Below are positions 10,151-62,685 of a DNA stretch of 64,000 nt, in pieces; position 1 is the stretch's first letter; the number at the start of each line of letters is the position of its first letter. Origin of the DNA: Zingiber officinale (lineage: Eukaryota > Streptophyta > Magnoliopsida > Zingiberales > Zingiberaceae). The notes under the pieces are model-generated. The model was not told where the DNA came from. It was given only the letters and a program-made list of their open reading frames with translations, and did no database searches. A program made the translations under genes and the position numbers. The stretch spans positions 15,177,317 to 15,241,316 of the forward strand of contig NC_055996.1 of assembly GCF_018446385.1 (NCBI RefSeq). Direction: 5' to 3'.

Positions 10151-12267
10151 TCCCCTAGTTGTTATATTATATAATAGACTTAGTAGTCCCAATTGTAATG
10201 ATTGGAAAACTTGGACATTAAGGTAGACTGTCCTCTCAGAACTGAGAACAATAACGGTGTATTTTATTAGTTGTTGAAACATATTTAGTGGTGTTATCTA
10301 CCGGTACCTGGTGTGTAGATACATGAACCACTGATTATGTCTGCAATTCATTGCAGGGGTTTTAGAAAATCCGACAACTATATAAATCACCGTCCACATG
10401 GGCACTCCTGTAAAAGTAGCAGCTGTTGCAGTGGGAGATGTTTATCCTTTGATAGGAATAAAATATGGATTATTAGAAATTGTCTTTACGTACTAAGTTT
10501 AGAAAGAACCTGATTTCAGTTTCTAAACTATTAAAGAATAGATATTCTGTCTATTTTGATAACAAACTTGTTATCAAGAAAAATAGGGAAGTTATCTGTT
10601 CTGGTACGTTGGTTGACAATTTATAATCCAATAACTCCCACGATGCAATAAATGAAAATTAATAACATATTTTCTAACTTTAAGAGAAAGTAACCTTCGG
10701 AAATGAACCAATCATATTTTTGACATCCAAGGCTAGGTTATAAAGGATAATAACCAATGAACCCAAGAGTCTAAGGGATATGGAAGGAAATCTTGGGTTC
10801 ATTGGTAGTGGAAATCTTTCCAACCTGCGAGTCTTATTTGGAAGGAAAAATAACCGAGAAGCTTTTAAGTCTAAGGGATATGGAGCCAAAGATATAATGG
10901 AATTGGTTTATTCTGATTTGTGTGGTCCTATGACTATCCAGATAGAGGTAGTTTCGAATAGTTTATCTATTTTATAGACAACTATTCGAGACACAGATAG
11001 ATTTACTTGATACACAGCAAGTCTAAGTGCTTTGATTAGTTCAAAGAGTACGAGGCTGATGCAGAGAAATGTCAAAGTAAAAATATCGAGACACTACGGT
11101 GAGATCGTAGTAGCAAATACCTCTTGGGAGAATTTAGGAGTAACTTATCAGAAGTAGGGACTCAATCCCAACTAACTGCACTTGGTACATCCCAACAGAA
11201 TGGTGTAGTAGAAAGAATGTATAATGCTCTTATGGAATAATTAGAATGATGATGAGTTATTTAGAAAATTACCAAATTTGTTTTAAGGATATACACTGAA
11301 AACGGAAGTGAACATAGTACCTTCTAAGTCAGAACTCTCTGTTGGGATCTTAGATGGCTAGAGGGGGGGGGGTGAATAGCTCCTTTAAAAACTTAAACGA
11401 AAACTTCTACACAGATAATCGTTAGCACAGCGGAATTGGACAACTAAAGGAGAGAAAAACACAAGCACACTAACACTAGGATTTACGAGGTTCGGGGATA
11501 ACTTGCCCCTACTCCTCGGCGTGTCCGTAAGGTGGACGACTCCTTGATCTTCGGTAGATCGCACCCCGGATAAACTCCGGCTAAAGATCCTCCTTCTCGG
11601 TGGAGTAACCTCTCCACAAAGATCACAAGAGTAGATTTGAAAGTGAAGCACAATTACTTACAGAGTGTGGCTAAAGGATTGAACAGTTTAACTTACAGCC
11701 ACGAAGCAGAAAAACAACGACAGGAGGAATCAGCCAAGAGCTCAACAAAAACGCACAGCCTCTTGCTTGAACGACAGAGAGAGTTTTTCCAGAGTAAGAA
11801 TTCTACCAAACCTCTCTTTTGCCTCCTTCTTATTTCTCTGCTCTCTTGCTATCTTCAGCCAGAGCCAAGCCACTGCATCGAATCACGTCAACCAGTAGCG
11901 TATCACTGTCGCCGAACCAGGCGTCGCCAATCACGCTTCTTCCTCATCTGATTATCTGAGCTCACACCAATACCATCCTTGGTCTTCACTGGTGTCTCTG
12001 AACTCGAACCAATGAGGAAGAGTCAAGCTGATTGCAGCCAGTGAGCCAACTGAACAAGCCAGTGAACGTTGACGCTTCTTTTGCACAATCTGCAGCGATA
12101 ACCAGTGGAAAAACCATTTTGTTTTATTCCTTTGATAGTCATTGATTTGAATTAAAGCATCACCATGGTACCGCAACTGTTACTCAAAAAGCTCCTGGCG
12201 GATGTTAGATCGGACGTATAACAAACGAATCGAAATCGGCCCGGCGGTGTGTGCGGGCGGTGTGGTG

Positions 12268-12692
12268 GATCGGTCGGCGGACCGATCCACACCTTTGAAC
12301 TCGATCGGTCGTGAAGACCGATCAGGGTATCACTGATCGGTCGACGGACCGATCGAGGTTAATAAGTGCGGTTCCTCGCACTCACGAGATCATCACCGAT
12401 CGGTCGGAGACCGATCAGTGATACTCCGGAGACCGATCGGGGTTCATATGGATCGGTCCACGGACCGATCCACCGCCTTTTCCTTCTCGCGACATCATCT
12501 CCCGATCGGTCTACGGACCGATCAGATTACACTCAATGAGCTACGGTGTTTCCTGATGTCTGCAGACCGATCAGGTTACTCGATGTGCTTCTGAGTGTTT
12601 CCTGATCGGTCGCCGGACCGATCAGCAAACATAGTTTCACCAGATCGGTCCGTGCACCGATCGGAAAACAAAATCCCGTCTGTTGACCGATC
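12268..12692. repeat. Palindrome cluster GATCGGTC-n-GACCGATC inside the solo LTR
   Basis: About eight full hairpin-type units of GATCGGTC, 3-6 variable bases, GACCGATC, plus about three half units, are spaced 30-75 bases apart. The arms are conserved while the spacers and loops vary. A shorter cluster of the same word is found in the sister LTR at 59551-59762. Confidence 0.85.
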
Positions 12693-12724
12693 CAACGCCC
12701 ATGTGATATTGGGATTGGTCTTGA

Positions 12725-12900
12725 GAACGAGCTACCGAGCGCCTTCGGCCGGTCCGGAGAGCGAGCTACTGAGCCCTCTCGGGCTTCGTGGGTCCGGAGA
12801 GCGAGCTACAGGCCCTCTCGGCCTAGTCAGGAGGCGAGCTACCGAGCCCTCTCCGACTTCGTCCGGTCCAGAGAACGAGATACCGAGCCCTCTCTGACCA
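12725..12900. repeat. Short tandem repeat in the solo LTR
   Basis: About four copies of a 45-55 base unit with the words 'ggtccggagagcgagctac' and 'gagccctctc'. This is a local expansion within the LTR and is not seen as an array in the sister copy at 58667-60348, which has a different tandem repeat. Confidence 0.65.
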
Positions 12901-15096
12901 CTCCGTGCCAAGTCTCCATACTTGGACTTTTCACCAGATGTCTGGTCAACCTTGACCCATCTGGATTTCCCTTGCCTGGCTTCACTCACCAGGACTTTCC
13001 CTCCCAATGGATCAACCTCGATCAGTAGTCAGTCTGAGTTTGATTAATATCTGATACAAACTTAAATCAGTGTCAACATCAAAACAACAGCCAGGTCAGA
13101 CTGTATCAACACTCTCTACTCCCACAGAATTGCAGAATGAGCGTAAGCCTAGTCTAAAGCATATATTCGGATTTGGGTGGTCTAGCACGTGAGAGACACT
13201 GAAAAGTTGGACATGAGTTCACTTGTTTGTGAGATATCCTAGAAAAATGAAAAGAGGTTTGTAGTCCTTAAAATCGGAAGGTCATTGTCGGCATCAATGC
13301 TCGATTTTAGAAAAGGATTATACTATGAACCATAAGCTCATAAGTAAATTTGTTCTTAAGAAAATAATAAAGGATATGTCTAATCTAGTACCAACTGTAC
13401 AAGATGAAATATCACAATAAACTGCAACACGTATCACAATTGATACACAAACAGTGCCTCGTCGTAGTGGGAGGGTTGTGAGGCAACTTGTAAGATTCAT
13501 GTTTTTGGGAGAATCTTTGGACTTGATCTCGAGTAAATATGAACATGATCCCCAGACATATGACGAAGCACTCCAAGATAAAGATGCAGCATCTTTGCAA
13601 AAAGCAATGAATACAAAATTAGAATATATGTATTCTAATAAAGTCTAGGAGCTTGTAGAATCACCAAATGGTGTAAAAGCCATTAAGTGAAAATAAGTCT
13701 ACAATAGGAAAAGAGGGATAGACAGGAAGGTAGAAACTTTCAAAGCAAAGCTTGTTAGAAAAAGGAAACTTTTTACCGGTAGTCATGCTTAAGTCTATCC
13801 GGATTCTTTTATCTATTATGAGATTTGACAAGTGGATGACAAGACAGCTTTCCTTTATGGAAGTCTTGAAGAATGCATCCATATAAAGCAACCAGAGAGG
13901 TTCATTGCAAAAGGCAAAGAACATCTAGTATGAAATCTCAATCAGTCTATGGACTGAAGTAAAGCTTCAAGGTCTTGGAACATTCGATTTAATAAAGTAA
14001 TCCGGACCTATGGATTTATTTAATAATCGAATGAGTCTTGTGTATACAAGAAGTGTGATGGAAACGTGGTGGTATTTCTTGTACTATACGTAAATAACAT
14101 TTTTGGTTGTTGGAAACAATATCAAAGTGTTGTCAGAAGTAAGGTTATGGTTATCCAAACAATTCGATATGAAGAACTTAGGAGAATGTGCACACATTCT
14201 TGGGATCAAAGTCATAAGGGATCGCAAGAAAAGAATGTTGTGTTTATCCCGAGCTTCATACAATCCTTACTCGTTTAGCATGCAGAACTTCAAGAAAGGT
14301 TTCTTACCTTTTAGGCATGGAGTAGCTTTATCTAAAGATGTCTTCGAAGACATCAAAGGAGATAAAGGACATGAAGGCAGTTCATTATGCTTCGGCTGTG
14401 GGAAGCCTAATGTATGCAATGCTGTGTACGAAACTGGATATCTGTTTTGCCGTGGGCATGGTTAGCAGACATCAAAGTAACCCTGGACAAGGACATTGGT
14501 CTTCGGTAAAGCATATATTGAAGTACCTTAGAGGCACTAGAGATTATATGCTAGCTTACAAGGCAGATAATTTGGTCCCTATACGTTGCACGGATTTTGA
14601 CCTCCAATCATATAAGGATAATAGTAAGTCGACCTCGGGGTTTTATGTTTACTTTAGGAGGTAAAGTCATAACTATGAAAGAATGATAAGCAAAAGTGTT
14701 TTTTCGGACTCAACCATAGAAGCTGAGTAAGTGGCAGCCTCTGAGGCAGTCATAGAAGCTAAATGACTCATTAACCTCAAGATGGACTTAGATATGATTT
14801 CTGGTTTGTCCAAAGATTATTACAATTTATTGTAATAATGGTGGTGTAGTAGTAAACTCGAAGAAATCATGAGTTTATAAGGCAAGGAAACACAAAAGAG
14901 TGCAAGTACCACCCAATACGAGAAATCGTATAAACGAGGAGAAGTTGTTGTCGCCTAGATTGCATCAAATGATAACCTATAGATCCTTTCACTAAGGCTC
15001 TTAAGGCAAGAGCTTTTGATGGGCATGTTGAATGGATGGGAATCAGATGTATGGCAGCATTTATGGCAGCATAGTCTTTTAGTATAAGTGGGAGAT

Positions 15097-17710
15097 TGTT
15101 GGAGTGTATACTAAAAGCATAGCTTTTGTATAAACATTTATAAGAATCACATTGGTCAAATGTCTACATTTATATATACCAAATGTAGATGTTCAATTAA
15201 TTTATATTGTAGATAACATAGTGTGTGGTGTCACACACAGAAGATCGTGTTATCGGTTCTTTATAAATTTAAAACAGTAGCTCATGACCAAGATGGAAAG
15301 GAACAAACCATTGGAAGGTCATAGTGTAATTAGGTATTAGTTTATCTTAACTATATAATTACACTAGTACACTTAGAGTGTATTGAGCAGGACCATTTAG
15401 AAGTCGTTTCTTTTATACTGATTTTATAAAGGAACAAAGACCTCAGTTATTATGAAAGTGTGTGTTCTTAATCCTAATATAATAACAAGCACATATATTT
15501 GATATTTATTTCTTTAATTTATCAATGGGTGAGATTTAGTTTGATAAATCAATAAGCCTGATAAGTTGGGAAATGATATCACTTATAGTGTGTGTTGTTG
15601 ATTATAGAAGGAAACTGTGTCCTAGTGATCTAGGTTGATAATGTCCCCAAGAGGAGCTCATACGGATTGTCATGTTAAACCCTGCAGGTGGACTTAGTCA
15701 GACATGATGATAAGGTTGAGTGGTACTACTCTTGGACTAAGATATTAATTAAATGAGTTGTCAGTAACTCACTTAATTAGTGGACATTCGACATCTTAAA
15801 CACAGGGAGACTAACACACTCATAATAAGAAGGAGCCCAAAAATGTAATTTGGGATTGGTGCGGTAGTTCAATAATAGTTCTTTAGTGGAATGAATTATT
15901 ATTGATAGAATTAAGTTGTGTGTTCGGGGCGAACACGGGAAGCTTAATTTCATCGGGAGACCAAAACCAATTCCTCCTCTCGGTCCCTATCGCAGCCTCT
16001 TGTATATAGAGATTTATATCCACCATATACCCACCTTCTTACCCAACCAATAGGGGATGACCGAGCTAAGCTTAAAGCTTAAGCTTAGGGCCGGCCAAGC
16101 CTAAAGGTTGAGCCTTAAGGTGGCCGGCCAATAACTTGGAGCCCAAGCTTAGGTGGCCGGCCACATCATATTAAAAAGGATTTTTTTATTAAAATTATTT
16201 CTTATGTGGATATCATGGTTTTAAAAGAGTGTTTGAAATTTAAATCTTTCCTTTTATAGCTTTCTACAAAAGATTAAGAAAAGATTTGAAATCTTTCCTT
16301 ATTTGTAGATTGAAAGGTAGATTTTAATTTTGAAAAAACTTTCCTTTTTTTAACCATGTTCATGATTTAAAAGAGAGTTTAAAAATTATATATTCTCTTT
16401 TATAAGTTTCTACAAAAGATTAAGAAAAGATTTGATATCTTTCCTTATTTGTAGATTGAAAGGAGATTTTAATTTTTAGAGATAACTTTCCTTTTTAGAA
16501 ATCATCCACATGTTTAAAAGAAAGATTTTAATTTATAAAATTTCCTTTTTATAATCCACCATGAAGGGAAAAATTATTGGAGAAATGTTTATAAATTTCC
16601 GGAGACAAATTAGGAAGTTTTAATTCTTGTGTTAATTAAAACTTTCCTTGCTTTGGAGATTAGTGGCCGACCATTATTTTAATGAGAAGAAAATTGTTTT
16701 TTAATTAAAATAAATTTTCCTTTTCATGGCAAAAGAATTAAGGAAGTTTTTATTAAAATTTCCTTATTTGCCAAGACCAAGGATTATAAAAGAGGGGGTA
16801 GAGGTGTCTTCATGGTGAACAACTCTATTATTCTTCTCCTCTCTTTTCCTCCTTGGTGGTCAGCCCTAGCTTCTCCCTCTTCTCTTCTTCTTGTGGCCGG
16901 CGGCAACCCCTCTTGGAGCTCTTGATGGTGGCCGGTTCTAGCTAGGAGAAGAAGGAGAGAAAGGAGGTTTTGTTTCTTGCATCCTTTGGAGCTTGGTGGT
17001 GGTGGCCGGACCTCTACTTCTCTTGGAGAATTGTGATGACCGAAACCTAGAAGGAAGAAGAAAGGTGCTTGGTGGTTCTCGTCTCGGAAGATCGTTGCCC
17101 ACACAACGTCCGAGGTTAGAAGAGGAATACGGTAGAAGATCAAGAGGTTATTTTGCTTACAAAGAAAGGTATAACTAGTAATTGTTTTCCGTATTATACT
17201 AGTTTTCTTTGTATAGTTATTTATGGAAATACCAAACACAAGAGGCATATGATTCTAGAGTTTTTGAAATAATTTTTTTTTTTGAGTTTGTGTTTTCTTC
17301 CTTTTCGAATTTGTGATTCGATTGTTCTTTTTAGTTAACCTAGAGTTATTTAAGAAAATAAATATTAGTTTTCCTTAAAAGGCTTTGCCTAGGCGGTGGT
17401 GGTTGCTCCCATATCCAAGAAGGTCATGTGCTTCGCCATGCAGTTCTGGAAGTCAATTTTGGAAATTAATATTTATGAAATTAATAACTTAGGTAGATTT
17501 GAATCAATAGTGTTAAGTTCCGCTTGCGATTCAAATCTAAACCATTAAGAACAGATAAGTTAAATTTGGAATCAATGATGTTAAGTTCCGTCCGCGATTC
17601 CTAATTTAACTTCTAAAGAACACAATAGGTTATTTAAGGAAAGGTTCGACACTTGTACAAAAAAATTTTGTATAGTGGAACCGGTACGATTTTCTTAGGA
17701 CTAACCAACA
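15097..17710 (+). repeat. 3' LTR of copia element A (family 1, about 2.6 kb)
   Basis: It begins TGTTGGAGTGTATACTAAAA right after a polypurine tract and ends ...ctaaccaaca. The same LTR family recurs at 56874-60997 (plus) and at 62686 to the window end (minus). A TATA-like tataaaag lies near 16788, a plausible U3/R start. The long LTR has AT-rich blocks alternating with 'ggccggcc' words, and ends with the shared 'cttgtacaaa...ttttgtac' inverted word. Confidence 0.88.
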
Positions 17711-18504
17711 CCTTAGTGGCCGACCCTTGCTCTTTCTCTCTTCTACTTTGTTTTCCCTCTTGATGGTCGGTGGCATCTTGGTGTGGAGATCTCTTGGTGG
17801 CCGGTTGCTTGAAGGAGAAGAAGAAGATAAGGAAGCTCTCTTGTCTAGCATCCCTTGGAGGAAAGTTGGTGGTCGGATCTTGGAAGCTTTTGAAGAAGCT
17901 TGGGTGGACTACCTCTTGGAAGATCGTCGCTCACACGACATTCAAGATAAGGAGAGGAATATAATAGAAGATCAAGAGGTCTATAAGTTAAGAAAGGTAT
18001 AACTAGTTATTAGTTTCCACATCATGACTAGTTCATCCTTTTGTATAGATCTTGTAAAACCAAACACAAGAGGTTATCGATTTTCGCTTCGATAATGTGT
18101 TTCTATTGAGGTCTCTATAGTTAAACCTTGTTTACTGTAAGAAGTTAAATATCCAATTTCTTTGTGAGGTTTTGTCTAAGAAGTGGTGGATGATCCCATA
18201 CCCAAGAAGGCCTAGTGCCTCGCCATGTTTAACCTGGAAGCCGATCTTAGAAATAGATATTTGATAACTTCTGTAATATGGTTTAACTTAGGAAGATCAC
18301 ATCGGTTGAACTTGGAGTAAGAATGTTAAGTTTCGTTCTCAATCCAAGTTTAACTTCTAAAGGGAAAATTGGATTAATAATGTTAAGCATCGTTTGCAAT
18401 CCAAATTTAAATTTAGTAGAACACATGGGTAGCTAGGATAGTTCTATGCTTGTACAAATTTTTGTACAAGGGAACTAAGATGGTATTCCGAGTAGCAACC
18501 AACA
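17711..18504 (+). repeat. 3' third of a second family-1 copia LTR
   Basis: It directly abuts the 3' LTR of element A and repeats the final third of that LTR in diverged form, including ggaagatcgtcgctcacacg, the aggtataactagt segment, 'cacaagaggt', the 'cccaagaaggcc' block and the terminal 'gtagcaaccaaca'. The junction is best read as element A inserted inside an older sister LTR, which itself lies at the left edge of gypsy gag sequence. The other part of this older LTR is not seen in the window. Confidence 0.75.
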
Positions 18505-23800: not shown

Positions 23801-23999
23801 GCTAAATGATCAAACAAAATGGATCGATCGGCCAACTAGGTAAACCGTTGTTGATTGAAAGCCAACATGAGGTCGCATGAGTCTACGCGATGCTCGAAAA
23901 GTGAGTTGCAGAATTAAAATACAAGAAAATAAAGGCTATCCGGACGGACAAAGCATTCATTGAAACTCCAAAAATATTTAAAGGCAACACTCTCAACTG

Positions 24000-28500: not shown

Positions 28501-28504
28501 TTAA

Positions 28505-30342: not shown

Positions 30343-31500
30343 TCTAGGAGGATGAAGTAATAGAGGGCTGACTATGAAGTCAATTTTACGTTGATTTTGC
30401 GTTAACTATTGAATCAATCAAACCCCGAAACACATAACTTGTTCATTTAAGTTCTTTGATCTCTTTCTTTGCCATTCATTTGCTATTCTTTATTTAACTC
30501 CGTATGTCATATAAACTATTATGTATCGACTAGGAAAATATCTTTTTAATTTTTACAAGCTTTTGTGTATCGAGTAGATGATGCAAATTGTAATTAAATT
30601 ATCAAAAAAGGAAAAAGAGAGGGAAAAAAAAAGGAAAGAAGTAAAGAAACAACCTGTATGTCATCAAACAATGCTTGACGTGGGTCCGTGAGCTATGCCT
30701 AACATGGGCCCGTGATCTAGTCGAGCTATGCCTGACAATGGGCTGGGCCTGGTTGGCCCATGACTGAGCCCGCTGCACCATTTAATATTTTAAGAAATAA
30801 ATAATTAAATAATTTAAAATAAAAATTTCTTTTAATTTTAGAAATAGAGGAAAATGAGAAATTATAAAAAATATACACAAAAATTATTTGTTTTTTTTTT
30901 CCTTTCCTGATATGATCAATCTATATTTTAACACTTTATCTGCAATTAAAACAAGAATTAAACTCTATTATCTATGCTAAACAAGACACAGTCCCTTTCT
31001 AAGTCTCTCTCCTAACTTACCATCATAAATCTAAAATAGTATTTTTGGTTGGAAGACGGATTTAGTGGGTAAGGTGTTTAATTATTTTTATGAATAAACG
31101 ATAATTTTTAATTAATTAAAAATATTTAACGCTTTTTTATAAAATAAAAATATAAAGTGTATAAAACTCCAACACTATTTACAATTTAATATTTACTATA
31201 CAATTTAACTCCACTGGAGAATCCTGTCGACTCGTTCCTCCATTAAATGCCCATAAGGAAATGGGAAAAAGCTACTGTTAATTAATGGCGGATAAGGAGA
31301 GAGAGGGAGAGCGGCATCAGTTACAGAAGGAGTTGAGAAGTCGACATGCTCTGAAACCACCTGCGTCCTTTTCCTCTTTTTACATCGCACTTATTATTAC
31401 TGCGCCGCGGTTAAAGCACCAGTAGAGGAAACCAGAAGCAGACAAAGCCCTCCGACCACCATCCTCACGCAGAGTGAGTAGAGACAGAAAGGGGGGAGAG
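30343..31500. other. Intergenic DNA, no gene seen
   Basis: AT-rich sequence with A-runs (30605-30645), a short GC-richer patch with repeated gagctatgcctgacatggg-like words (30675-30780), and AT-rich DNA to 31200. From 31270 on, GA-rich sequence (ggagagagagggagag, 31290-31310) and 31480-31545 probably form promoter and leader of the patatin gene. Confidence 0.35.
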
Positions 31501-39836: not shown

Positions 39837-39864
39837 TTAAGAAACAAGCCAGGTCAAAGTTAAC

Positions 39865-48994: not shown

Positions 48995-49204
48995 CTAGAG
49001 GCGAGCGGAAACAGAGAACGAGGGGGGAGAAGGAGGAGGAGGCCGGAGATGGGTGGTGAGGAACGGCGAGGAAGCAGCCGTCGCAGTGGAGGGGAGGGCG
49101 GCCGCTTTATTTTTGTCGTCGAATTTATTAACTTGTCGAAGACGAGTTTATTTCTCTTTCTATTATTATTATTATTTAAATACAATAATATTGTTATAAT
49201 TTAA

Positions 49205-49757: not shown

Positions 49758-50921
49758 TGTTGAGACTTTTATGGCCAGTTAGAGAAGGTAAATAGTCAAT
49801 CATCCACTTTGATCACTTTCTACAACTTGTTAGTACGCAGCAAAAATACAAACAACACTAATAAGAAGAAAGCTAAACCCTAAAACAAAGACAAGACAAA
49901 CATCAAGCAAACCTTAACACGTTTATGTAACGTGATTCGAAGATAATTTACTCTTACTCCACGGGGTGTCCGTAAGGTGGGCAATCCCTGTGATCTTTGG
50001 GTGAATCAATCCCCGGAAAACCTTCAGCTAGCACCACCTCCTTGTGGGTGGAGAAACCTCGCCACAACCTTAATCACGTACACACAGATCGCACACAAGA
50101 GCTTGAAAGACTGCTAATAAGCGTTAACCACCTCTATTTCATCAACCATGGCCGACCACCCCGAGCTCTATTAAATAGAGCTCGGGAGAAAACACAAACT
50201 ATGTTTCCCGTCACTAGTCGATTGACCTCTATAAAAAGATCCGATCGTTACACATCAACGGATCGATACCAGTCAACTGTCATACTTACTAGTTGACTGG
50301 TCTTTATGGGCTAAGCGAATAGAAACATTCTGTTCGCTACTAGTCGACTAGTATTTCTGCCAATCGACTGTACTAGTTGACTGGTTAGCCTACAACCACA
50401 AATTTTGCATCCTTCTAAGTTGTTGGTTCTCAACCACCAGTCTACTGAGACACATACCAGTCGACTAGTAAACCCTAACTTAGGATTTTACCCCCAAGTA
50501 CAATCACTCATGCACTTATCCTTGTCCACACAACTCTCGACCTTACATTAAGGCTCCTCCATCAGTCTTGCGTCCCTTAGATGTCTCCCCATCCTTCATG
50601 CATTGCCTTCAGAAGCTTCCATCAGCCTTGTCCTTGTTATCGGGTCTTCCTATAACCTTGTCTTCTAGCCTTCTTTATCAGCCTTGCGTCCCTCACATGC
50701 TTCCCTATCCTTAACGCTTTGCCTTCAGAAGCTTCCTTCGGCTTCGGTCTTTATCCTTGCCAAGTCATATTTGGACTTACACCTTTGCCAAGATCACACT
50801 TGGATTTTCCTTGTTCTACCTATATCCTACATACTTACAATGCATATCAAATACCACAATAAACCTAACTTAAACCTTTGCCCAAATATCAAAACCTAGG
50901 ATCACATAGATTGCTCCAACA
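49758..50921 (-). repeat. 3' LTR of copia element C
   Basis: It matches 54686-55899. It contains a cluster of cagtcgactgg-type palindromes (about 50205-50470), the 'ccgtaaggtgg' block shared with family 2, and the start (minus) tgttggagcaatctatgtg. Confidence 0.88.
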
Positions 50922-52066
50922 ATCTCCTCCTTTTTGATGTTTGACAATCTGTTTAAGTTAGGGAAACCATATAGCAATACATATGCAAATAAATATGCAA
51001 ATCAACTCCTGCATAAATAATGAAACCAAAATCCTTAGACTCCCCCTTGAACTAAGCTCCTCCTTGAGTTAGAATTTCTTGCAAAGGTATGTAGGTTTCC
51101 CACTTAAACTAAACACTTCTCCCCCTTTACCATATATTAAAAAGAGATCCAATAATATCCCAATTATTAGACTCTTTAATCTCTAATGACCATAATTATT
51201 ATGTATTAATCTCCTTTAAGATTACATACATATACATCATCCTTTTGGTCATTTTCTATTGATGAAAAATAGTTTTGGACTATATCAATCGACTGTCATA
51301 GGCCCCAGTCGACTGCCCTCATCGAAACAATCTCATAGAATTATTCTTTGTTTGATGAACAGTGTTACCAATCTTCTAGTAACTGTATCAGTCGACTGAT
51401 ATACTATTTCAGCCTCAAATAATATTTTGAACCCAACTTCAAAAATACACTAAAAAATCCATAAATCTTTTAAAATTCATAAATTTTATGGAGAGGTTTG
51501 TTTTACCAATGTCTACTATATTTATCACGGATCCCAAAATTGACACAAAACTCAAAACTATCTAAATGGTTCAATTAAATCTTGACCTAGAGTCCTAGTT
51601 TTGGCTTCCTCTTGATGTATCTGTCCATACTAAACCATAATGACCTCTAGCATTAGTTTATATGACATCTATATATCTAAAATAAATTTTCATGCAATAT
51701 GAACCTCATTTCATATTTTCATGCATGATACTCAATTCAATTATATCAATTCCTTGGATTTGAGACTTAAATCCGTCTCCAAACCACTTTGGCACATTTC
51801 ATGACCGATCTTGAATCTCAGGCATGGTCCACTTGAGATCCATTTACCATATGTCCCAAAAACTCTTTGAGCTCCCCTAGTGCTTTTAACCTTAGCTATC
51901 TCTCTAGATGACTTATCCACTATGGCTAGGCCACTTCAGTGCATCTCAGGTGACACTTGGCCTATAAACCTTACCTTCTTAACCTTAGACACTTTGTCTT
52001 TGGTTAATTTTTCCTTATTCTTAAATGACTTTCCCTTACCATTTTTTGACATCTCTTTGTTATAAT
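50922..52066 (-). other. Internal DNA of copia element C between 3' LTR and nested element
   Basis: AT-rich sequence after the polypurine tract, with further agtcgactg words (51290-51310, 51388-51400) and a lysine-rich frame on the minus strand (about 51936-52060) that continues the gag-like basic region seen right of the nested element. No pol domain is recognised. Confidence 0.5.
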
Positions 52067-53206
52067 TGTTGGTCCCTTTGGAGGCCGACAAGAGGAGAGG
52101 GGTGAATTGCCCTACAAAATAAAACAACCCTTTCTCGGATTTTCAACTAAATAATAGCACTTATAATTAAAATAAAAGAGACTAATAAAAAGCAAACAGA
52201 CACAAGGAAGTTACTTGGTTTGCAATCAAGAGATTGCTAATCCAAGGAAAATATAGCGCACTATCTGATGTCTCCCTTGGGCGGAGTAGCCTCTTACAGC
52301 GTTAACAGCACAGACAGAAAAGTAAAGCACAAAGAAAATGGATTACATGTGAATTAAATAAACTGTGCAGATCAATGTTATATTTATAGCACTGTTCGGA
52401 GCGCCCTGAAGGGTCCGGGCGCCCTGTGGGGGATAAATTTTATCCCCTAACGTTCAGATCGAGTCAAAACTCGATCTGGTCTGGGTCTTTCGCTCCGGCT
52501 CTATTAGCTTGGGTGATCTCTGCCATCCAGAATAGGGCTCACCTGAACCCAAGTTCCGGCCTTCTCCTCGAGCAGCCTTCCTCCCAGGCTTCTCGTCCCT
52601 CGAATGTCACGTACGTTCTTCTCATCCACCGGTGTACTCTTCCGCGGTCACCTCGTCCCTCGGACGCACCGAGCTCGTCAGCTTTCTCTCGTGACGTCCT
52701 TCTCGCTAGCCGCATCTTCCGCTCGACTTCCTGTGCTCCTAAGCTCCTGCACACTTACACACAAGGGTTAAAACAAACAGGATCTAACTTAACTTGTTTG
52801 ATCACATCAAAACACCTTGGGGTTCCAACAATCTCCTCCTTTTTGATGTGAGCAGCCCAAGTTAAGCTAGGGTAAAACAAACATAAAGTAAAAACAATTA
52901 AGTTTTGCAAATAAGTGCAAATATGATTTTTCAATGAAAGTATACCTCCCCCTAGACTTAACATACTTCTCCCCCTTTGATCACATAAAAATTGGGGTTC
53001 CTTAACAAGTCTAAAGTTAACTTGTAAAAAAAATTCTAAGTTAAAAGAAAATTTAATTTTGAAAGGTAAAAATAGATTGTTTGCAACGGAATTAGTAACT
53101 TTAAAAAAAAAAAAATTAAGTTAAATTTCTAAGTTAGAAACATATTTTCAACAGAAAAATAATTTTAAAAAAAAATTCTAAGGCAAAACACCTTGGGGTT
53201 CCAACA
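52067..53206 (-). mobile_element. Small LTR element (family 4) nested in copia element C, broken
   Basis: Flanked by the perfect 5-bp duplication ataat (52062-52066, 53207-53211). The left part (52067-52830) is a full LTR: minus strand starts TGTTGGAACCCCAAGGTG, and a polypurine tract (caaaaaggaggagat) lies next to it at 52831-52845. The right end repeats the first ~25 bases of that LTR (minus). No coding region is seen. Its LTR holds gggcgccc-like words near 52395-52430. It is a broken or non-autonomous copia-type element. Confidence 0.82.
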
Positions 53207-53885
53207 ATAATCGTATGTCACCCTAGCATATTTTTTCATGACCTTTGGATGACACTCCCTTGCCCTTGGTCACTTCTCCCTTACCAATGTCATGTGTCAT
53301 TCTAGCACTTAACCTCCTTTTAGCATTGGAGGGACCCACTTTGACACTTTTGGATCTCTGACCACCCAAACACATATCAAGTCCTCTAGGTCTAATAATG
53401 AACGTATCTAAGCCTTTCTCCATTTCCTCAAGCATTGTCTTCAATGCTTGATTTTTCAATTCTAGGGTTCTAACCCTAGAATCAACATGTCCACCTTGGA
53501 TATTCTTAGACCTATCCTTCTTAGGCATATGTCTTCCCTTCTTGGGATAAATACTTAGGTTTTTAACCACCTTTCTCTCCTTAGTCAAGGTGGATTGTTT
53601 CTTGCTAGGTTTATCATTTGAATATGATTTCCTAGGGTTATCAACAATGTTAACCCTATTCCTATCATTATACTTAAATCTATAATTATGAATGGGTACA
53701 TAATTTTTATTATTCCTAACAAGTACGAAGGAATTTGAAATTGGATTAAATTTTCAATTAGGGATTACCTTCCCTTTTACCTTTGGAGTTCCCTCCTTAA
53801 CTTGAGCTCCACTTCTTCTCTCATTTCTTCAAGTACGCCAATTTCTTGAGCTCTCCTCTCCTAGGGCACTTCGTGTGATAGTGGC

Positions 53886-54410
53886 CTAGCTCACCGCATG
53901 TAAAGCATATAATATGCTTCTTCTCCTTGCATTATCCCTACAACCCACGTTAGTCTTCAAAAGAACTTTACTGGGTTTAAAGTTTACCTCATTTACCTTT
54001 TTGAGCAATGGACACATACTCTTGTAGTATCCTATCTCATCACATTCAAAGCATTTGATGTGTGATTTCCCACTCTTTTCTGTAGTTGAAGTTGAGGGTT
54101 GAACTTCCAAAACTTCTTCTTCATTTGTCTTGGACTCTTCTTCCTCCCTTGAAGATGTGGACGGTTCTACTTCTTCCTCCTCTTCGGATGTTGAGCTCGT
54201 CTCCACATCCGATTGGTCATTCTCCTCCTCTTTGACCAATGAGCCCTTCTCCTTGGACTCCTTCACTTCTTGTTCTTGTGTAGGGTTTTCATGAAGAGCA
54301 ATTACTTTGTTCCATAGTTCATGAGCATACTTGTACTCACCTACATGTGACACAATATTACGAGGTAATAATTTCAACACAATTCTAATTACCTCATTAT
54401 CCATCTCCAA
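53886..54410 (-). pseudogene. Copia gag remnant of element C
   Basis: The minus-strand frame has LLPRNIVSHVGEYKYAHELW and IALHENPTQEQEVKE, typical of the copia gag (UBN2-type) region. A long Glu/Ser linker follows, then the zinc knuckle CFECDEIGYYKSMC. A basic region follows on the far side (53223-53588). It is part of a fossil element and not a host gene. Confidence 0.75.
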
Positions 54411-54685
54411 TTACTCTCTTTGCTCTTTAGTCCAATACTAAGGCCAGAGACGCTCCCCCTTCTTATCCATTAGAACTTCGAAGGGAACTTCTAACATGGT
54501 TTAATAGTCCTAATCCATTTGGAACCAAGTCTCTAACTGCTTTCTCCAATACTCAAAATCATTTTGATCGTATGGGGGTGGGATTCGAATATCCCATCCC
54601 AATGGTCTTTCCAATTCTATCTTCCTCTAGCGCTTTGCTCCCTCGGCGATTAGTCCAACGAAAGCGGCCAAGCTCTGTTACCAAT

Positions 54686-55899
54686 TGTTGTGACCTTTAT
54701 GCTCGGCTATAGGGGGTGAATAGTCGATTACCCACTCTGATCGCTTCCTACAACTTGTTAGTACGCAGCGGAAATAGAAATAACACTAATAATAAGAAAG
54801 CTAAGCCCTAAAACAAAGATTAGATAAACACCAAGCAAACCTTAACATGTTTATGTAACGTGGTTCAAACATAACTTACTCCTACTCCATGGCGTGCCAG
54901 TAAGGTGGATGATCCCTGTGATCCTTCGGTGGATCAATTCTCAAAAAACCTCTGGTTAGCACAATTTCCTTGTGGGTGGAGAAATCTCACCACAACCTTG
55001 ATCACGTACACACAGATCACACACAAGAGCTTAGAAGACTACCAATAGAGGTTAACCACCTCTATTTCGTCAACTATGGCCGACTACCCCGAGCTTTATT
55101 AAATAAACCTCGGGAGAAAACACGAGCTATGTTTCCCGCCACCAGTCTATTGGTAAAGTCACTAGTTGACTGACCTCTATAAAAAATTTGATCGTTACAC
55201 ACCAACGGCTTGATATCAGCCGACTGCCATACTTACCAGTCGACTAATCTTCATGGGCTAAGTGAACAAAAATATTTTGTTCACTACTAGTCAACTGGTA
55301 CTTCTGCCAGTTGACTACATCATTCGACTGGTACTTCTGCTAGTCAACTAGTAACTCTACAACCATAAATTATGCATCCTTTTGAGTTATTGTTCTCAAC
55401 CACTAGTCAACTAAGACACATACCAGTCGACTGGTAAACCCTAACTTAGGATTTTACCCATGAGTACAATCACTTATGCACTTGTCCTTGCCCACACAAC
55501 TCTTGACCTTACCTTCAAGCCTCCTCCATAAGTCTTGCATCCCTCAGATGTCTTCCTATCCTTCACGCCTTGCTTTCAGAAGCTTTCATCGGCCTTGTCC
55601 TTATTATCGGGTATTCCCATGGCCTTGCCTTTTAGCCTCCTCCATCAGCCTTACATCCCTCGGATGTTTCTCCATCCTTCATGCCTTGCCTTCAAGAGCT
55701 TCCTTCGGTGTTGGTCTTTATCCTTGTCAAGCCATACTTGAACTTACACCTTTTCCAAGATCACACTTGGACTTTCCTCATTGTACCTGCATCCTGCATA
55801 CTTACAATATATATCAAATACAACAATAAATGTAACTAAAATTTTTATCCAAAAATCAAAAACCTAGGATCACATAGATAATGATAGATTACTCCAACA
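54686..55899 (-). repeat. 5' LTR of copia element C
   Basis: It ends (minus) just before the tRNA-Met-type primer site and pairs with 49758-50921. A second cluster of agtcgactg palindromes lies at about 55140-55440. Confidence 0.88.
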
Positions 55900-55904
55900 A
55901 TTTA

Positions 55905-56067
55905 TTCTCGACTTTTCTTCATGTATTGTAATAATCTTAGAGTGATTTGATAATGTCACTATTAAAGTTTGTTTGTTGACTTTCATGATTTAGCAGTGTC
56001 TCCTCGTGTAAACAGATAACCTGTTTGAGATTTAACTTTATGTGGATATAAAAGATAACATGCATCT
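55905..56067 (-). mobile_element. Degraded copia remnant, right part
   Basis: AT-rich minus-strand remnant that continues the piece at 49205-49757 across the inserted copia element C. The right edge is set by the LTR start of gypsy element 2 at 56068. Old and broken. Confidence 0.5.
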
Positions 56068-58918
56068 TGATGCGGTGATTAGGCAGGGCCCCACCCTGCC
56101 GCCACGTGATGGTCAAAGTCAAGATGGTCAACGGATGGGAGATCGGGTGGCCGATCCGGCGAGTTACACGTCGATCGAGAGGTTAAGCACCGACCCATCA
56201 TTTTGGGCACAGGGAGTAATCAGACCGACACTCAAGGGATGTGTAGAAGCCGAGCCGAGTGGCTATCTCGCTCGGCCCGATGGCGGATGACACTGACAGA
56301 GGACTTTCAACCGAGCGGCTCTCCCACTCGGCACGACAGTGGACTTTCAGCCGAGCGGTTGTCCCACTCGGCATGACAGCAGATAACGCAGGGATATCAG
56401 AATTCTGGCCAAGTGGTCATTCCGCTCGGCCAAGCAACAGACACATCGAGATATCTTTCGACATCCTTTTGGGAGCTAGTGCCGCTAACAGGCGGCATGG
56501 TCAGACAGAGGATCGTACGGTGGAAATTTTCACTGTCACTTCAGAGATATGCTCGGCCCGTTAAGGTGCTGTGTTAGGGACACTTTACTGACATGTTTCT
56601 TCAGGGAAAGCTTGGGATAACGTGCCCACTTTAAGAAGCGTGCACACACGCTATAGGAGCCCTATATAAAGGGGAGTCCAGGCATCGACGGAGGCCTAGG
56701 CTACATCGTCACCGAGTGGGGCATCGAAGCCAATCCCAGCAAGGTCCACGCTTTGTAGAACATGCCTTCGTCTCGGAATTTGAAGGAAGCTCAGAGGCTG
56801 ACCGGTCAGATCACGGCGTTGTCCCGGTTCATATCCAAGTCATCCGATCGAAGTCTGCCATTTTACAAGATACTGTTAGAGTGTATACTAAAAGTTTAGC
56901 TTTTGTAAACATTTATTTTTGAAATAAAAGAATCACATTGGTCAAATGTCTACATTTATTTGTTAAGTGTAGTTGTTCAATTAATTTATATTGTACATAA
57001 CATGGTGTGTGATGTCACACACAGAAAATCATGTTATCAGTTCTTTATAAATTATAAACAGTTACTCACGACTAAGATGGAAAGGAACAAATCATTGGAA
57101 TAGTCGTAGTGTAATTAGGTATTATTTATCTTGACTAATAAATTACACTAGTACACTCTAAGTGTATTGAGTAGGACCATTTTAGGTAAGTTCTTTTTAT
57201 ACTTACTTAATAAAAGAACAAGACCTTAGTTATTATGGAAGTGTGTGCTCTTAATCCTAATATAATAACAAGCACATATATTTAGTATTTATTTCTTTGA
57301 CTTATCAAAGGGTGAGATTTAGCTCGATAAATCAATAGGCTCGATAAGTTGGGAAATGATATTACTTATAGTGTGTGTTGTTGATTATAGAAGGAAACTG
57401 TGTCCTAGTCATCTAGGTTGAGAATGTCCCCAAGAGGAGCTCATAAGGATTGTCATGTTAAACCCTGCAGGTGGACTTAGTCCGACATGACAATGAGATT
57501 GAGTGGTACTACTCTTGGACTAAGACATTAATTAAAATGAGTTGTCAGTAACTCAATTAATTAGTGGACATTCGATATCTTAAACACAAGGAGACGAACA
57601 CACTCATGATGAGAAGGAGCCCATAATGTAATTTGGGTTTGGTGCGGTAATGCAATAATAACTCTCTAGTGGAATGAGTTATTGTTGATGAACTTGAGTT
57701 GTGTGTTCAGGGCGAACACAGGATACTCAAATTCGTCGGGAGGCCAAAACCAATTTCTCCTCTAGGTCTCTGTCATAGCCTCATTAATGTCTCAAGTCCA
57801 CTTATAAAAAGCTCTTCTTGGTGTCCAAGAGGGGGCCGACCCATGGCTTGGTAACCAAGCCATAGTGGTCAGACAATTCCTTCTCAAAGGGGCATGCCCT
57901 TTGCATGGTGTTCAAGCAAAGAGGGGTCATCCATAATAATTCATAATAGGAGGGGCGTTTTAAAATTTTAAAATATTCTCTTTGTAGATATCTACAAGTT
58001 TTAAAAGAGAGATTTTAAAATTTAAAACTTTCCTTATTTGAATTAGGCCACATAGTTTAAAAGCTTTAAAACTTTCCTTTTTTAACCATCCTCATGGTTT
58101 TTAGAAAAAAGGAAGAGAAGTTTTAAATTTGAAACTTTCTATTTTTGTAACCATGTTAAAAAAGGAAATTTTAGAAGAGAAGTTTTAAATTTTAAAACTT
58201 GGTTTTAATTTTTTAAAAAATTTTCCTTTTTTAACATCCACTTTAGGAAATTAAAAGAAAGCTTGTAAAATTTTATAAGAGCTTTCCTTCTTTGCTCATA
58301 AAATTTTTACAAGAATTATTTTCTTCCTTTTAAGGGGTCAGCTACCCTTGCTTGGTGCCCAAGCAAGGGGCCAGCAAATCAAATCAATGATTGATTCAAT
58401 CAATGATTGAATTAATCAAGAGAAAGGAAAAGGAAAAATAAAAGGGGAAAAGGAAAAACAAGAGGAAGATTTTAATTTTTGTAAAAAGTCTTTCCTTATT
58501 TGTCTTGAGCAAGTAATATAAAAGAAGGGGAGGGGAGACCTCATATATTATCAATTCTTATTCTCTTGTTGAGCTCTCTATTGTGGTCGACCCTCTCTCC
58601 CTTCCCTTTCCCCTTGCTCTCTTTGGTTCCTTGGTAGTGGTGGTCGCCGGATTTTAGAGAAGGAGGTGTTGGTGCAACCTTAGGTCAAGGTTGACCTGGT
58701 TGACCTGACTCGAGTTGACCTGACTCGAGTTGTATTTTGATGTTTGACTTAGGAAGATTGTTGGTGCAACCTTAGGTCAAGGTTGACCTAGTTGAGTTGT
58801 ATTTTGATGTTTGACACTCGTGGAAGAGTTGTATTCTTGATATGGGACAAGAATAGATGTTTGGGAGATTATTGGTGCAACCGTAGGTCAAGGTTGACCT
58901 GGTTGACCTGATTCGGGA

Positions 58919-59065
58919 AAAGTCCAAGTATGGAGACTTGGCACGGGAAAAGTCCAAGCAGGGAGCTTGGCACGCGAAAAGTCCAAGTATGGAGACTTGG
59001 CACGGGAAAAGTCCAAGTATGGAGACTTGGCACTGAAAAGTCCAAGTATGGAGACTTGGCACGGA
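58919..59065 (+). repeat. Tandem repeat of about 28 bases in the solo LTR
   Basis: About five copies of gaaaagtccaagtatggaga followed by cttggcac. The sister LTR at 11340-13111 has only one copy of the unit (about 12905-12935), so the array grew in this lineage. Confidence 0.85.
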
Positions 59066-59550
59066 GAAGTCAAGCGAGGAGCTTGCACGAGGAAAGTCCT
59101 AAGCGGGATGTTAGGCGGTGGAAAGTCCCGTGAGTGAAGCCGAGCGGTGGGAAAGTCCTAACTGGGATGTTAGGCGGTGTGGAAAGTCTGGTGAGTGAAG
59201 CGGACTGGGGAGTCCTAACTGGGATGTTAGGCGGTTGGAAAGTTCAGTGAGTGAAGCGAGGGGAAGTCCTAACTAGGATGTTAGGTGGTGTGAAAACCCT
59301 AGTGAGTGAAGCTAGGTGAAAGTCCGGGTGAGTGAAGCCAGGCAAGGGAAAATCCAGATAGATCAAGGATGATCGGACATCTGGTGTTGAGGAAAGTCCA
59401 AGTAGGTCAAAGGGATTGACCGGACACTTGGCGAGGAATTCTAGCAGGTCAAGGGAGTGACCAGATGCTAGGGATGAAGTACCAATAGGTCAAGGTTGAC
59501 CGGATATTGGTTTGGAAGGTTTGGGACTTGGTTTGGGCAAAAACCAAGCT

Positions 59551-59762
59551 CTGGATCGGTCTGCAGACCGATCCAGTGATACGTTTGTGTATCTGATCGG
59601 TCTGGTGACCGATCAGATAACAAACAGAAGGCTGTGGGCTTACTGATCGGTCTGGAGACCGTTGGGCAACTCTCTGTGAAGCCTTCTGATCGGTCTGGGG
59701 ACCGATCAGCACAGGGCCTGATCGGTCCCCGCGACCGATCAGGCTGAAGCCTGATCGGTCCA
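59551..59762. repeat. Palindrome cluster GATCGGTC-n-GACCGATC, second LTR
   Basis: About five units plus a half unit within 210 bases, just before the TATA box of the LTR. The arms are as in the cluster at 12268-12692, but the loops (such as tgca, tggt, tggg) differ. Confidence 0.85.
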
Positions 59763-62685
59763 GGTTCTAGCCGTTGCGTAGCAACGGCTAGTTTCTGCTG
59801 TGTCTTCTTCGCAGGTATAAAGGGGTCGAGGGTTGCTGCTGCGATGCTACTTCTTCTTCTTTCTTGCTACTAGAACTTCTGTTCTTCTGCTGCTGAAGCT
59901 TCTGCTTCAACTGAGCTTTGATTGTCAGCTGCTGCGTTTGGGTTGTGAAGTTGCTGCTTCACCTCCAGTCGACAAGAAAGCAAGCAATTGGTAGAGTGCA
60001 ATTGTATTCATATTGTATTGCTTTTCTTACTGTTCTTGTACTCTTTGTTTGTTGTTGCAAACGTTTGTGGCGAGGTTTCTCCACCCACAAGGAGTATATT
60101 GTATTAGCCGGTTCTCCGGGGTCTCATCCACCGACGGATTGACTGGACTCGTCCACCTTACGGACACGCCAAGGAGTAGGAGCCCTAATCTCCGAACCTC
60201 GTTACATCGCTGCGTCTAAAGTTTGATCATCTTCGTTTCGTTTCTATTTAGTTATTTCCGCTGCGCTAACCCTAATTGTAGAAAGAAACGGAAGATTTGG
60301 GGCGGCTATTCACACCCCCCTCTCTAGCCGTACGAAGAGATCCTAACAGGAGGAAGAAGACTTTAGGTGGTGTTCAACTTGGAGAATCGTCGCCCACACG
60401 ACGTCCAAGGCGAGGGGAGGAATACGACAGAAGATCTCGAGATTATTAGCATACAAAGAAAAGGTATAACTAGTAATTGTTTTCCGCATCATGCTAGTTA
60501 TTTTTCTTTGTATGAATTCCTAACACAAGAGGCATTAGATTCTAGTTTTTTGACTTTGTTATTCGAGTTGTGTTTTTTTTATTTTTCGAGTTTGTGATTT
60601 GATTGTTCTTTTTGGTTAAATTAAACCTAATGTTATTTTAGGAAATTAAATATTAAATTTCTATTAAAGACTTTGTCGAGGCAGTGGTGGATGATCTCAT
60701 GCCCAAGAAAGCCTAGTGCCTCGCCATGTTTGACCTGGGAGCCGATTTTAGAAATAAATATTTAATTAACTTTATAACATAGGTTGATTTGGATCAATAG
60801 TGTTAAATTTCGCTTGTAATCCAAATCTAAACCATTAAGAACAGATAAGTTAAATTTGGAATCAATAATGTTAAGTTCTGTTTGCGATTCCTAATTTAAC
60901 TTCTAAAGAACACAATAGGTTGTTTAGGAAAGGTTCGACACTTGTACAAATTTTTTGTACAGTAGAACCGGTACGATCTTCCTAGGACCAACCAACAGAT
61001 ACTACGCCGAGCCATAAAATTTCAATGGGACGCCGAGCGCGACCGGGTGCTGGAGGAGCTGAAGGAGTATCTGAGCTCACTACCTATGTTAGTCAAGCAA
61101 GTCGCGGGTGAGACACTTTGGATATATTTGTCATCCAACGAGCATGCCATTAGATCGACTCTAGTCAGGCAGAACGACCAAGATCAACAACCTGTATATT
61201 TTCTAAGCCATATATTGAAGGATGCTGAATCTCGCTACACCAGTCTTGAAAAGTTGGCTTATGCACTGGTACTTGTCGTGGGGAGGCTTCGCCTGTACTT
61301 CCTAGCGCACTCAATAATAGTGATGACCAACAACGCTTTGGAGAGGGTTCTCCTCAATCCTGAGGAGTCTGAACGGCTGATCAAGTGGACGGCCAAACTT
61401 AGCGAGTTCAACATCCAATATCAACCCCGAGTGGCGATCAAAGCTCAAGCCCTGGTGGATTTTGTCATAGAAGTCTAGAGTAACAAGCCGGCGGCAACCT
61501 GGAAGATATATGTGGATAACTCGTCCACTCGGCAGGACAGTGGGATCGACTTAATCCTCATCTCGCCTCAGGAAGATAGGATGCAGCTATCCGTCCGGCT
61601 GGACTACCGAGCTACTAACAACGAAGTAGAGTATAAGGCATTGATAGATGGCTTACAAGCAGCTCGGCACGTGGGAGCGGATAAAGTCCTTATTCACTCG
61701 AATTCCTAGCTCGCCACCCAGCAACTATCCGGGACCTTTGAAATAAGTAGCACACGGCTAAGGCTCTATGCAGAGACTTTTTAAAAGCTGAAGGCCAACT
61801 TCCAGATCCCCCAATTGGAGAACCAAACGATGGATGAGATAGCGAAGCTGGCCAGTTCATTAACGCCGATCGTCATAGGTCAGCCGATCTACCAAGTCTC
61901 ACTAGTGGCCCACATCGACCGTATGGAGGGAATCACCTTCCCGAATGACTGGAGGACAGCCCTGACAGAGTTCTTACGTTTGGGAACTGCACCTGCCGAT
62001 CCGGAGGATGCTCGCTTGATAAAGAAGAGGGTCGATCGGTTCACGTTGATCGGCGACCAGCTCTATAAGAAAGCCTTCTCCCGACCCCTACTCAAATGCG
62101 TCGGATTAGAAGACGTTGATTATATCTTGAATGAGGTGCACCAAGGCTCTTACGGAGGTCATTCGGGCGGTCGCGCATTGGCCCGAAAAATACTTCTGGC
62201 TGAATACTTCTAGCCAACCCTCCAGGAGGATGCCGCTCGGACGGTGGCAAACCTACCTATCTTGCCAGAAGTACCACAACATGCCGCACTGACTGACCGA
62301 GAAGATGAAAGCGTCGACGATATTGTGCCTGTTCGACAAATGGGGTCTGGACATCGTGGGGTCTTTCCCTATGGCAATCGGTCAGCGAAAGTTTCTACTG
62401 GTGGCGGTGGACTACTTCTCAAAGTGTGTAGAGGCCGAGCCACTTGCCAGAATCACCGAGCAGATGGTCACCAAATTTATTTGGCAGAATATTATTTGTT
62501 GGTTCAAAATTCCGCGTCGACTCGTGTCCAACAATGGGAGACAGTTTGTCAGTCAGGAGCTCAAAGAATGGTGTGAAAGCTATGACATCCAACAATCCTT
62601 CGCCTTGGTGGCCTACCCTCAAGGCAATGAACAAGCAGAAGTCGCCAATCGGGAGATCCTCAGAGTCTTGCATGCTCGGTTCAAC

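Follow-up and report, generated by a model that had tools for sequence, protein, structure and literature searches.

The stretch of Zingiber officinale DNA analysed here, hereafter the window, is 64,000 nt long (G000:C11:15177317-15241316) and lies within a 3.09-Gb genome of 211 contigs. It contains long terminal repeats (LTRs) of three retrotransposon families, families 2, 3 and 4, in which an initial annotation had noticed clusters of short palindromes whose sequence, or word, differs between families. We call these word A (family 2), word B (family 3) and word D (family 4). The LTR coordinates of that annotation are accurate; in addition, both family 2 copies are solo LTRs, the minus strand carries the 11340 copy as well as those of families 3 and 4, and word B also occurs inside its element, at 51305 and 51388. 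The features are as follows, U3 denoting the unique 3′ region of an LTR.

11340-13111, minus strand: solo LTR of family 2 (word A), with CTCTC duplications on both sides
12268-12692, minus strand: word A palindrome array within this LTR
49758-50921, minus strand: 3′ LTR of the family 3 (word B) element
50269-50468, minus strand: word B array of the 3′ LTR
51305-51399, minus strand: internal word B palindromes, about 0.4 kb ahead of the 3′ LTR
52067-52830, minus strand: LTR of a word D (GGGCGCCC) element (family 4) nested in the word B element, with one word pair at 52399-52424
53886-54410, minus strand: open frame taken as a gag remnant of the word B element, with a zinc-knuckle-like stretch recognised by eye
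54686-55899, minus strand: 5′ LTR of the word B element, which is without long coding frames
55142-55434, minus strand: word B (CAGTCGACTG-type) array of the 5′ LTR
58667-60348, plus strand: solo LTR of family 2 (word A), with a 5-bp duplication, GGAGG, at 58662-58666 and 60349-60353, a polyC signal and a TATA box
59554-59760, plus strand: word A palindrome array (a Sirevirus repeated motif) in the U3 of the 58667 LTR
59816-59821, plus strand: TATA box of the 58667 LTR, with the last word 55 bp before it

The 11340 LTR resembles that of an autonomous element, its start being like those of loci L068 and L034 (LTR type judged by eye). No Pfam match at E 0.01 was found for the frame at 53886-54410. 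The word D copy belongs to a truncated element, 52067-53210, in which an LTR and a piece of linker end in the start of a second LTR, the whole nested within the word B element.

Within the window, word A (GATCGGTC-N4-GACCGATC) has 12 matches at up to three mismatches, compared to 0.19 expected, and word B (CCAGTCGACTGG) has 18 at up to two mismatches, compared to 1.28; in neither case did any of 100 shuffles reach the observed number. Eleven of the 12 word A matches fall inside the two family 2 LTRs, and 14 of the 18 word B matches within the family 3 element, the two internal ones included. The clustered, family-specific palindromes described for these two families are thereby confirmed, as is the placing of the family 2 cluster just before the TATA box (55 bp in the 58667 LTR) and the block common to families 2 and 3, which is found at 60156 and, as its reverse complement, at 11521 and 49966. 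The family 4 word fared less well: GGGCGCCC, at up to one mismatch, occurs 11 times against 8.4 expected, a count reached by 28 of 100 shuffles and not significant in the window, and the pair at 52399-52424 is by itself not above chance, but the word recurs in LTRs L057, L060 and L064, and L066 and L067 contain it as GGAGGCGCCTCC or in shorter form.

Across the 3.09-Gb genome there are 156,429 exact copies of word A and none of its reversed control (genome-wide counts possibly span two haplotypes). The conserved LTR block, searched for independently of the word, was located at 31,494 places (15,605 forward, 15,889 reverse). The first 30 loci sampled by this block carry, within 900 bp upstream, word A in 23 cases and word B in six, and neither word in one. 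A search for the junction between polypurine tract (PPT) and 3′ LTR returned 28,191 places; from 100 listed junctions, 12 (L056-L067) were chosen by eye away from block matches, and of these six have a further word, C (GATCGATC or AATCGATC type), three word D, two word E (GGCGCC in GGAGGCGCCTCC context or shorter) and one word A. Loci L001-L076 all come from the first 3.6 Mb of contig C1. Together the 30 loci and 12 junctions bear out the claim of one dominant word per family at a matching place: at least five words share one LTR position, ahead of the TATA box. Word C has the form ATCGATC-N4-GATCGAT and lies one pair apart from word A. A candidate for two words in one LTR (L029, seemingly A and B) was rejected, since a word B element has inserted there into an LTR with word A. 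We also note that the word C arrays of L077 (551-599) and L082 (575-625) hold a palindrome with 19-20-bp arms that contains ATCGATCGGTCGATCGAT and so the word A half-site GATCGGTC; it is a possible intermediate between words A and C.

Judged by sequence hallmarks, most of which were found among those tested, the elements are Sireviruses, a genus of Ty1/copia retrotransposons that makes up 21% of the maize genome (PMC10760457; this and the other papers are cited for the portions used here). The PPT octamer AGGGGGAG is followed by AT and then by the TG of the LTR, giving GGGGGAGATTGTTG at the junction, in L054, L068, L034, L077, L079 and L080; the pattern was not found in L055, L078 and L081, and the variant GGAGGAG is present in the window word B element and the word D LTR. 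Linkers contain several PPTs, with three to four octamers ahead of the 3′ LTR in L054, L068, L055, L077, L078, L079, L080 and L081. At the junction between the 5′ LTR and the primer-binding site, for which the Sirevirus pattern is CA-A(T/G)TGG-TATCAGAGC, L054, L068, L035 and L055 read CAAGTGGTATCAGAG and the window word B element reads CAATTGGTAACAGAG; the slices of L077-L082 stop short of this end. A polyC-rich integrase signal (CTATTCACCCCCC type) lies close to the 3′ end of the LTR in the window, in both word A copies and the word B copy, and also in L054, L034, L035, L055 and L077-L081; it was not found in the word D LTR at 52067. The PPT/3′ LTR junction is surrounded by an inverted repeat with a 14-bp arm in L054, 11 bp at the word D junction and 9 bp in L079; a repeat of at least 9 bp is absent from L068, L034, L077, L080 and the window word B junction, as the feature is from three published Sireviruses (PMC2829016). 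The pol order of L068 is of copia type, with an rve frame upstream of an RVT_2 frame.

The arrays are a known hallmark of this genus. Bousios et al. (2010) described Sirevirus repeated motifs (RM boxes) in 13 elements as palindromic, element-specific, present in at least eight copies and placed shortly ahead of the LTR TATA box (PMC2829016). This rules out the arrays as an undescribed feature; the initial annotation had known of no description. Among these 13 motif-bearing elements, RM boxes also stand upstream of the env-like gene in nine of nine that carry env, and in none of the four that lack it (PMC2829016). Twelve of the 13 published motifs have a CGG-CCG core; that of Tnd-1 does not, which means that the core is not defining for all RM boxes (PMC2829016). 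The core is present in word A and not in words B (CAGTCGACTG) and C. We conclude that the hallmark is found here in new families, two of whose words, B and C, are unlike the usual core. Counting strict units in the linker plus one LTR gives 12 in L068 (5+7), 14 in L077, 12 in L078, 12 in L079 and 11 in L081; fewer than eight are present in L054 with its 3′ LTR (6) and in L080 (3).

The second, internal array carries the same word as the LTR array. This holds in 14 of 14 elements in which both were read, 13 of them sampled elsewhere and one being the family 3 element of the window:

Word A in both arrays: L068, L054
Word B in both arrays: L055, L078 and the window element
Word C in both arrays: L077, L079, L080, L081, L069/L056, L070/L058, L071/L059, L072/L061, L073/L062

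The word B element L055 has inserted into a word A LTR, which accounts for two word A units in its 5′ LTR slice. At 15 PPT/3′ LTR junctions on C1, assessed by coordinates only, word A was present in both places in five cases, internally only in one, in the LTR only in one and in neither in eight (Fisher p=0.011); the LTR of the internal-only case (L017) contains word A half-sites. Word units are absent from the gag-pol part of L068 and from the gag part of L054.

The position of the internal array is best seen in L068, an autonomous word A element whose LTR blocks are 9.6 kb apart and in which five strict word A units lie between pol and an extra open reading frame (ORF) in the position of env. 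This ORF weakly matches PF20167 (E=0.0014). A genome search with PF20167, in which 150 of 7315 candidates were scored, provided six further loci (L077-L082), picked by length class among the 150 matches; in all six a homologous ORF has an array upstream, of word C in five (a single strict unit in L080) and of word B in one. By the route of LTR-block patterns, no clear autonomous word C or word D element had been found. The ORF aligns across the A, B and C lineages, with 35-45% identity between lineages, and PF20167 matches all seven of the proteins compared; the other weak domain matches are two, in one protein each, and are neither DUF1985 nor DUF287. Among five word C ORFs the ratio of nonsynonymous to synonymous substitution rates (dN/dS) over the domain is 0.06-0.16: the ORF is under purifying selection. 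Of word A copies, 94 of the 97 best-scoring are without internal stop (97 scored of 16,327 candidates). The gene presumably has an intron after a short first exon, since a start codon, a donor GT and then a basic second exon are recognisable in L068 (ATGGCTCCAAG followed by GT), L078 (ATGGAGCGTCG followed by GT) and L077 (ATGCGGACTCAAAACCCTAAACCTAG followed by GT), and a similar first-exon pattern occurs in L080, L081 and L082. The basic N-terminus, interrupted by the presumed intron, resembles a nuclear localisation signal (NLS); at the C-terminus, a long stretch may form a helix for dimerisation. In L078 (word B) TATA boxes follow the last word at both arrays, 14 bp after it internally, where a promoter is presumed, and 24 bp after it in the LTR. 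Non-autonomous elements carry the arrays too: L054 and L055 are gag-only, each with one sense frame of at least 100 aa, a zinc knuckle and no pol domain.

Comparison of word A non-autonomous copies with other elements shows the word to differ where the surrounding sequence aligns. The linker of L054 (word A) aligns with five of five word C linkers, in each case up to 42-46 bp from the array; to L068, the autonomous element with which it shares its word, it aligns only in the palindromes and in one 81-bp stretch at the array edge. The upstream U3 of word A non-autonomous copies (L054 and the window LTR at 58667) aligns with word C LTRs L056 and L059 over 54-71% at 77-81% identity (437-542 bits) and with word C LTR L062 at 266-341 bits. 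Downstream of the array, word A non-autonomous LTRs match those of word B and of the autonomous word A element at 80-115 bits, but give no alignment of at least 40 bits with word C LTRs (the L034 slice extends beyond the LTR end, which understates its downstream coverage). On this sequence evidence the LTRs are mosaics, and in the linker two separated arrays differ together on a backbone otherwise held in common. The annotation's notion of a swappable module fits such LTRs, whose neighbouring blocks can be aligned although the array is a different one, and its suggestion of a recognition code gains from the word difference at both arrays. Nothing else points as strongly to a reader that acts in trans and is specific for the word as this joint difference of two arrays on a common backbone; array DNA transferred by recombination, with or without selection, could also yield a paired difference.

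A further series of repeats was seen in the U3. At 58900-59540, upstream of the word array, lie hairpin-like units of about 30 bp, of AAGTCC..GG type, whose arms vary in pairs (for example CCTGGTGAGTGAAGCCAGG and CCTAGTGAGTGAAGCTAGG); the series occurs in word A and word C elements (the window, L056, L058, L059, L061, L063 and L065).

To characterise the individual unit, contexts identical to one another were counted once, leaving 182 word A units from 27 sources and 130 word C units from 16; shuffled sequences give 2-7 units. (L031, a word A LTR, sat in the word B set of the arm, pair and spacing counts, and L023, with no word found, was omitted from the word A set of the arm and pair counts.) Arms are near-invariant within a family and most changes are unpaired: word A has nine paired and 105 single changes in 1456 pairs, word C six and 59 in 910. 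Paired changes were counted per family because words A and C differ by one pair. Compensatory arm changes, which the annotation had anticipated, are rare inside the word within a family, but are seen at the two to three pairs flanking it and between families. The loop measures 4 bp in 124 of the 130 units of word C and in 125 of the 182 of word A. Distances between units cluster around multiples of 10.5 bp, with R 0.41 for word A (n=78) and 0.59 for word C (n=61) compared to a null of about 0.1, and with peaks at about 30-32, 41-42, 53-55 and 83 bp in words A and C together; the strength of this signal is uncertain because the units are related by descent. The near-invariant arms, the near-fixed half-site spacing of word C and the 10.5-bp spacing in A and C favour the protein-binding array proposed earlier; in B the 10.5-bp spacing is not clear.

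Between the last word A unit and the TATA box of the 58667 LTR is a 25-bp palindrome, CTAGCCGTTGCGTAGCAACGGCTAG (59767-59791), and CCGTT...AACGG pairs akin to it lie close to the TATA box in the word A LTR of L054 and the word B LTR of L055. AACGG forms the core of MSA, a mitosis-specific element to which MYB3R proteins bind, and word A and B LTRs with such pairs may be cell-cycle driven.

What, then, do the arrays do? The association of word, internal array and protein, together with the paired word difference on a common backbone, points to a word-specific reader. Under the explanation we favour, arrays stand just upstream of two promoters per element, that of the LTR and, in autonomous copies, the presumed promoter of the env-position gene; each palindrome would be a double-stranded DNA site for a dimeric, word-specific protein, and the bound protein would hold both promoters active or unsilenced. 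The most likely reader would be the env-position product, because of its PF20167-like homology across three word lineages, purifying selection, NLS-like N-terminus, possible dimerising helix and an own-word array ahead of its gene. A gene behind its own word would form a feedback loop, and non-autonomous copies that retain the word would be served in trans. That the palindromes are read by the element's own product in this way seems to us to have somewhat less than an even chance. The fuller proposition is more tentative still, and we would call it possible rather than probable: that the Sirevirus "envelope-like" gene encodes no envelope, but a nuclear regulator specific for one word, which would bind the palindromes ahead of the LTR promoter as well as those ahead of its own gene, in the manner of VANC, that word and protein change together, and that non-autonomous elements switch both arrays to follow another autonomous partner.

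Several observations weigh against this explanation. The autonomous word A LTR has a short upstream part (356 bp), of which 42-44% aligns with non-autonomous word A LTRs at 85-89% identity (169-220 bits), an identity that exceeds that to word C LTRs, over less sequence. There are only three protein lineages, which means that word and protein may simply be co-inherited; the case that breaks such co-inheritance depends on one fully read word A non-autonomous element, L054. Strict word C units number just one and two in the respective arrays of L080, and L079 lacks the presumed donor GT. In three word D/E elements, the 2.6 kb ahead of the 3′ LTR showed no internal array apart from LTR sequence (such long frames as they have, in L074 and L076, are gag). 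The env-position protein found no match among solved structures (one meaningless match, E 0.69) or known DNA-binding families, and AlphaFold2 models of the ORF and of its domain were too poor to use (mean pLDDT, the predicted local distance difference test score, 39.5 and 41.5). It has a hydrophobic stretch (Kyte-Doolittle over 19 residues 1.73-2.08 in word C proteins, 1.21 in A, 1.56 in B), which leaves room for the published view of the Sirevirus env-like product as a membrane protein (PMC3414828). Six env-containing Sireviruses without RM motifs are mentioned in PMC2829016, so that an env gene does not everywhere need the motifs. At the level of the unit, word B spacing fits 8.25 bp better than 10.5; the two to three pairs flanking the core covary above composition (word A first pair 124/182 compared to 67 expected), clearly above slid controls with one exception in word C (first pair 97 observed, one slid control 82/130); and strong RNA folding is predicted for the arrays (z -11.5 and -6.4).

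Some of these observations suit other explanations. The palindromes may be enhancer sites for host transcription factors, on the model of Tnt1 box I, the same factor acting at both promoters and hence the same word, with families using different factors. The promoter-proximal place, near-fixed half-site spacing of word C and multiples of about 10.5 bp in A and C suit any DNA-binding dimer, and published RM boxes match mainly stress factors in the PLACE database, among which the authors were unable to single out a common one (PMC2829016). Host factors alone leave unexplained that internal arrays track the env-position gene in the published elements, and that one non-autonomous element has in both arrays the word of an autonomous element whose linker is unrelated; we regard this alternative as unlikely, if a serious one. 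The RNA folding and the paired changes 2-3 bp outside the word are what would be expected if the arrays were RNA or DNA hairpins, transcribed inverted repeats feeding small RNAs and host silencing, a case reportedly made in 2016 for the Sireviruses of maize, whose palindromes are hotspots of small RNAs (PMC10760457, PMC5311732). Rapid change is likewise seen here: array identity is below that of the downstream LTR part in seven of eight distinct putative LTR pairs and below that of the upstream part in six of eight (pairs presumed from spacing, with target-site duplication checked in L054 only), in agreement with the rapid palindrome evolution reported for maize (PMC5311732). For silencing any hairpin would suffice, however, and one word per family, equal words in two arrays and near-invariant arms are not predicted; the LTR array sits upstream of the TATA box, and G.U strand asymmetry, a test for selection on RNA, is not significant, with the sense strand somewhat ahead for both words (A 34:26, p=0.37; C 30:17, p=0.08). 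This we consider improbable.

Less probable again is that the arrays are a mutational by-product, expanded by slippage and made symmetrical by templated correction during reverse transcription or replication. The covarying flanking pairs would fit, as would the LTR pair of L054, 79.5% identical in the array, 98.7% before it and 93.7% after it, a divergence that could reflect fast mutation, conversion or assembly error at hairpins. Opposed to it are the units before two promoters, with none in the L068 gag-pol or L054 gag part, and the persistence of word C, still recognisable between L080 and other word C elements whose env-position ORFs are separated by synonymous divergence (dS) of 2.2-3.8, with silent sites saturated or nearly so, though strict units in L080 are few.

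Papers of 2010 and 2012 treated the role of the Sirevirus palindromes, and likewise that of the env-like gene, as an open question (PMC2829016, PMC3414828). No link between Sirevirus env and anti-silencing was found in open-access literature, including the portions used of PMC13317346, PMC12844716 and PMC3414828; PMC12844716 asks whether extra ORFs of LTR retrotransposons modulate the epigenetic landscape, with VANC as example. Compared to the RM boxes of Bousios et al. (2010), our elements share the many element-specific palindromes before the LTR TATA box, the extra copies before the env-like gene in motif-bearing env carriers, and the PPT, primer-binding-site junction and polyC signal; the word difference on a common backbone, the PF20167 identity and the presumed first intron were not found described in the portion of that paper used (PMC2829016). 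Should our explanation be true, the two questions would answer each other, and Sireviruses would possess a built-in promoter-protection system with a readable code. What is added here is three autonomous lineages, each with a homologous PF20167-like ORF in env position and an own-word array upstream, and the link of word, second array and env-position protein, with the paired word difference on a common backbone. Named word pairs and protein lineages make the explanation testable with three proteins and three DNA words.

Work on maize Sireviruses published in Genome Research in 2016 is said to have tied a fast-evolving palindrome cluster to small RNAs and silencing, and box I of the Tnt1 U3 reportedly has few copies and no second array ahead of an extra gene. 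The maize cluster and ours are alike in being fast-evolving, hairpin-capable and located in the regulatory part of the LTR; they differ in that the maize palindromes are linked to small RNAs and silencing, whereas our arrays are known from DNA sequence (PMC10760457, PMC5311732). Tnt1 box I is, as here, a symmetric U3 element, held to be a cis-acting activator (PMC2829016). Grande gene23 is also an extra gene between pol and 3′ LTR, with a nuclear protein and its own promoter; Grande is a Ty3/gypsy element, gene23 is antisense, and palindromic word arrays were not found described in the portion of the paper used (Vicient and Casacuberta 2020, PMC7264820). The Athila ORF likewise lies between pol and 3′ LTR and has PF20167 and a predicted NLS, but Athila too is Ty3/gypsy, and word arrays were not found described in the part of PMC11728184 used. 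The closest parallel, if our explanation is true, is VANC, the anti-silencing protein of VANDAL transposons: it too is encoded by the element, whose non-coding sequence, some of it close to its genes, carries arrays of short motifs that differ between related families (Hosaka et al. 2017, PMC5735166). VANDALs are DNA transposons, however, their VANC proteins carry DUF1985/DUF287, where ours have PF20167 and neither DUF, and the VANC21 motifs YAGTATTAC and YAGTATTAT are not palindromic (PMC5735166). By analogy, then, the env-position system of Sireviruses may work like VANC, yet we do not class it as VANC.

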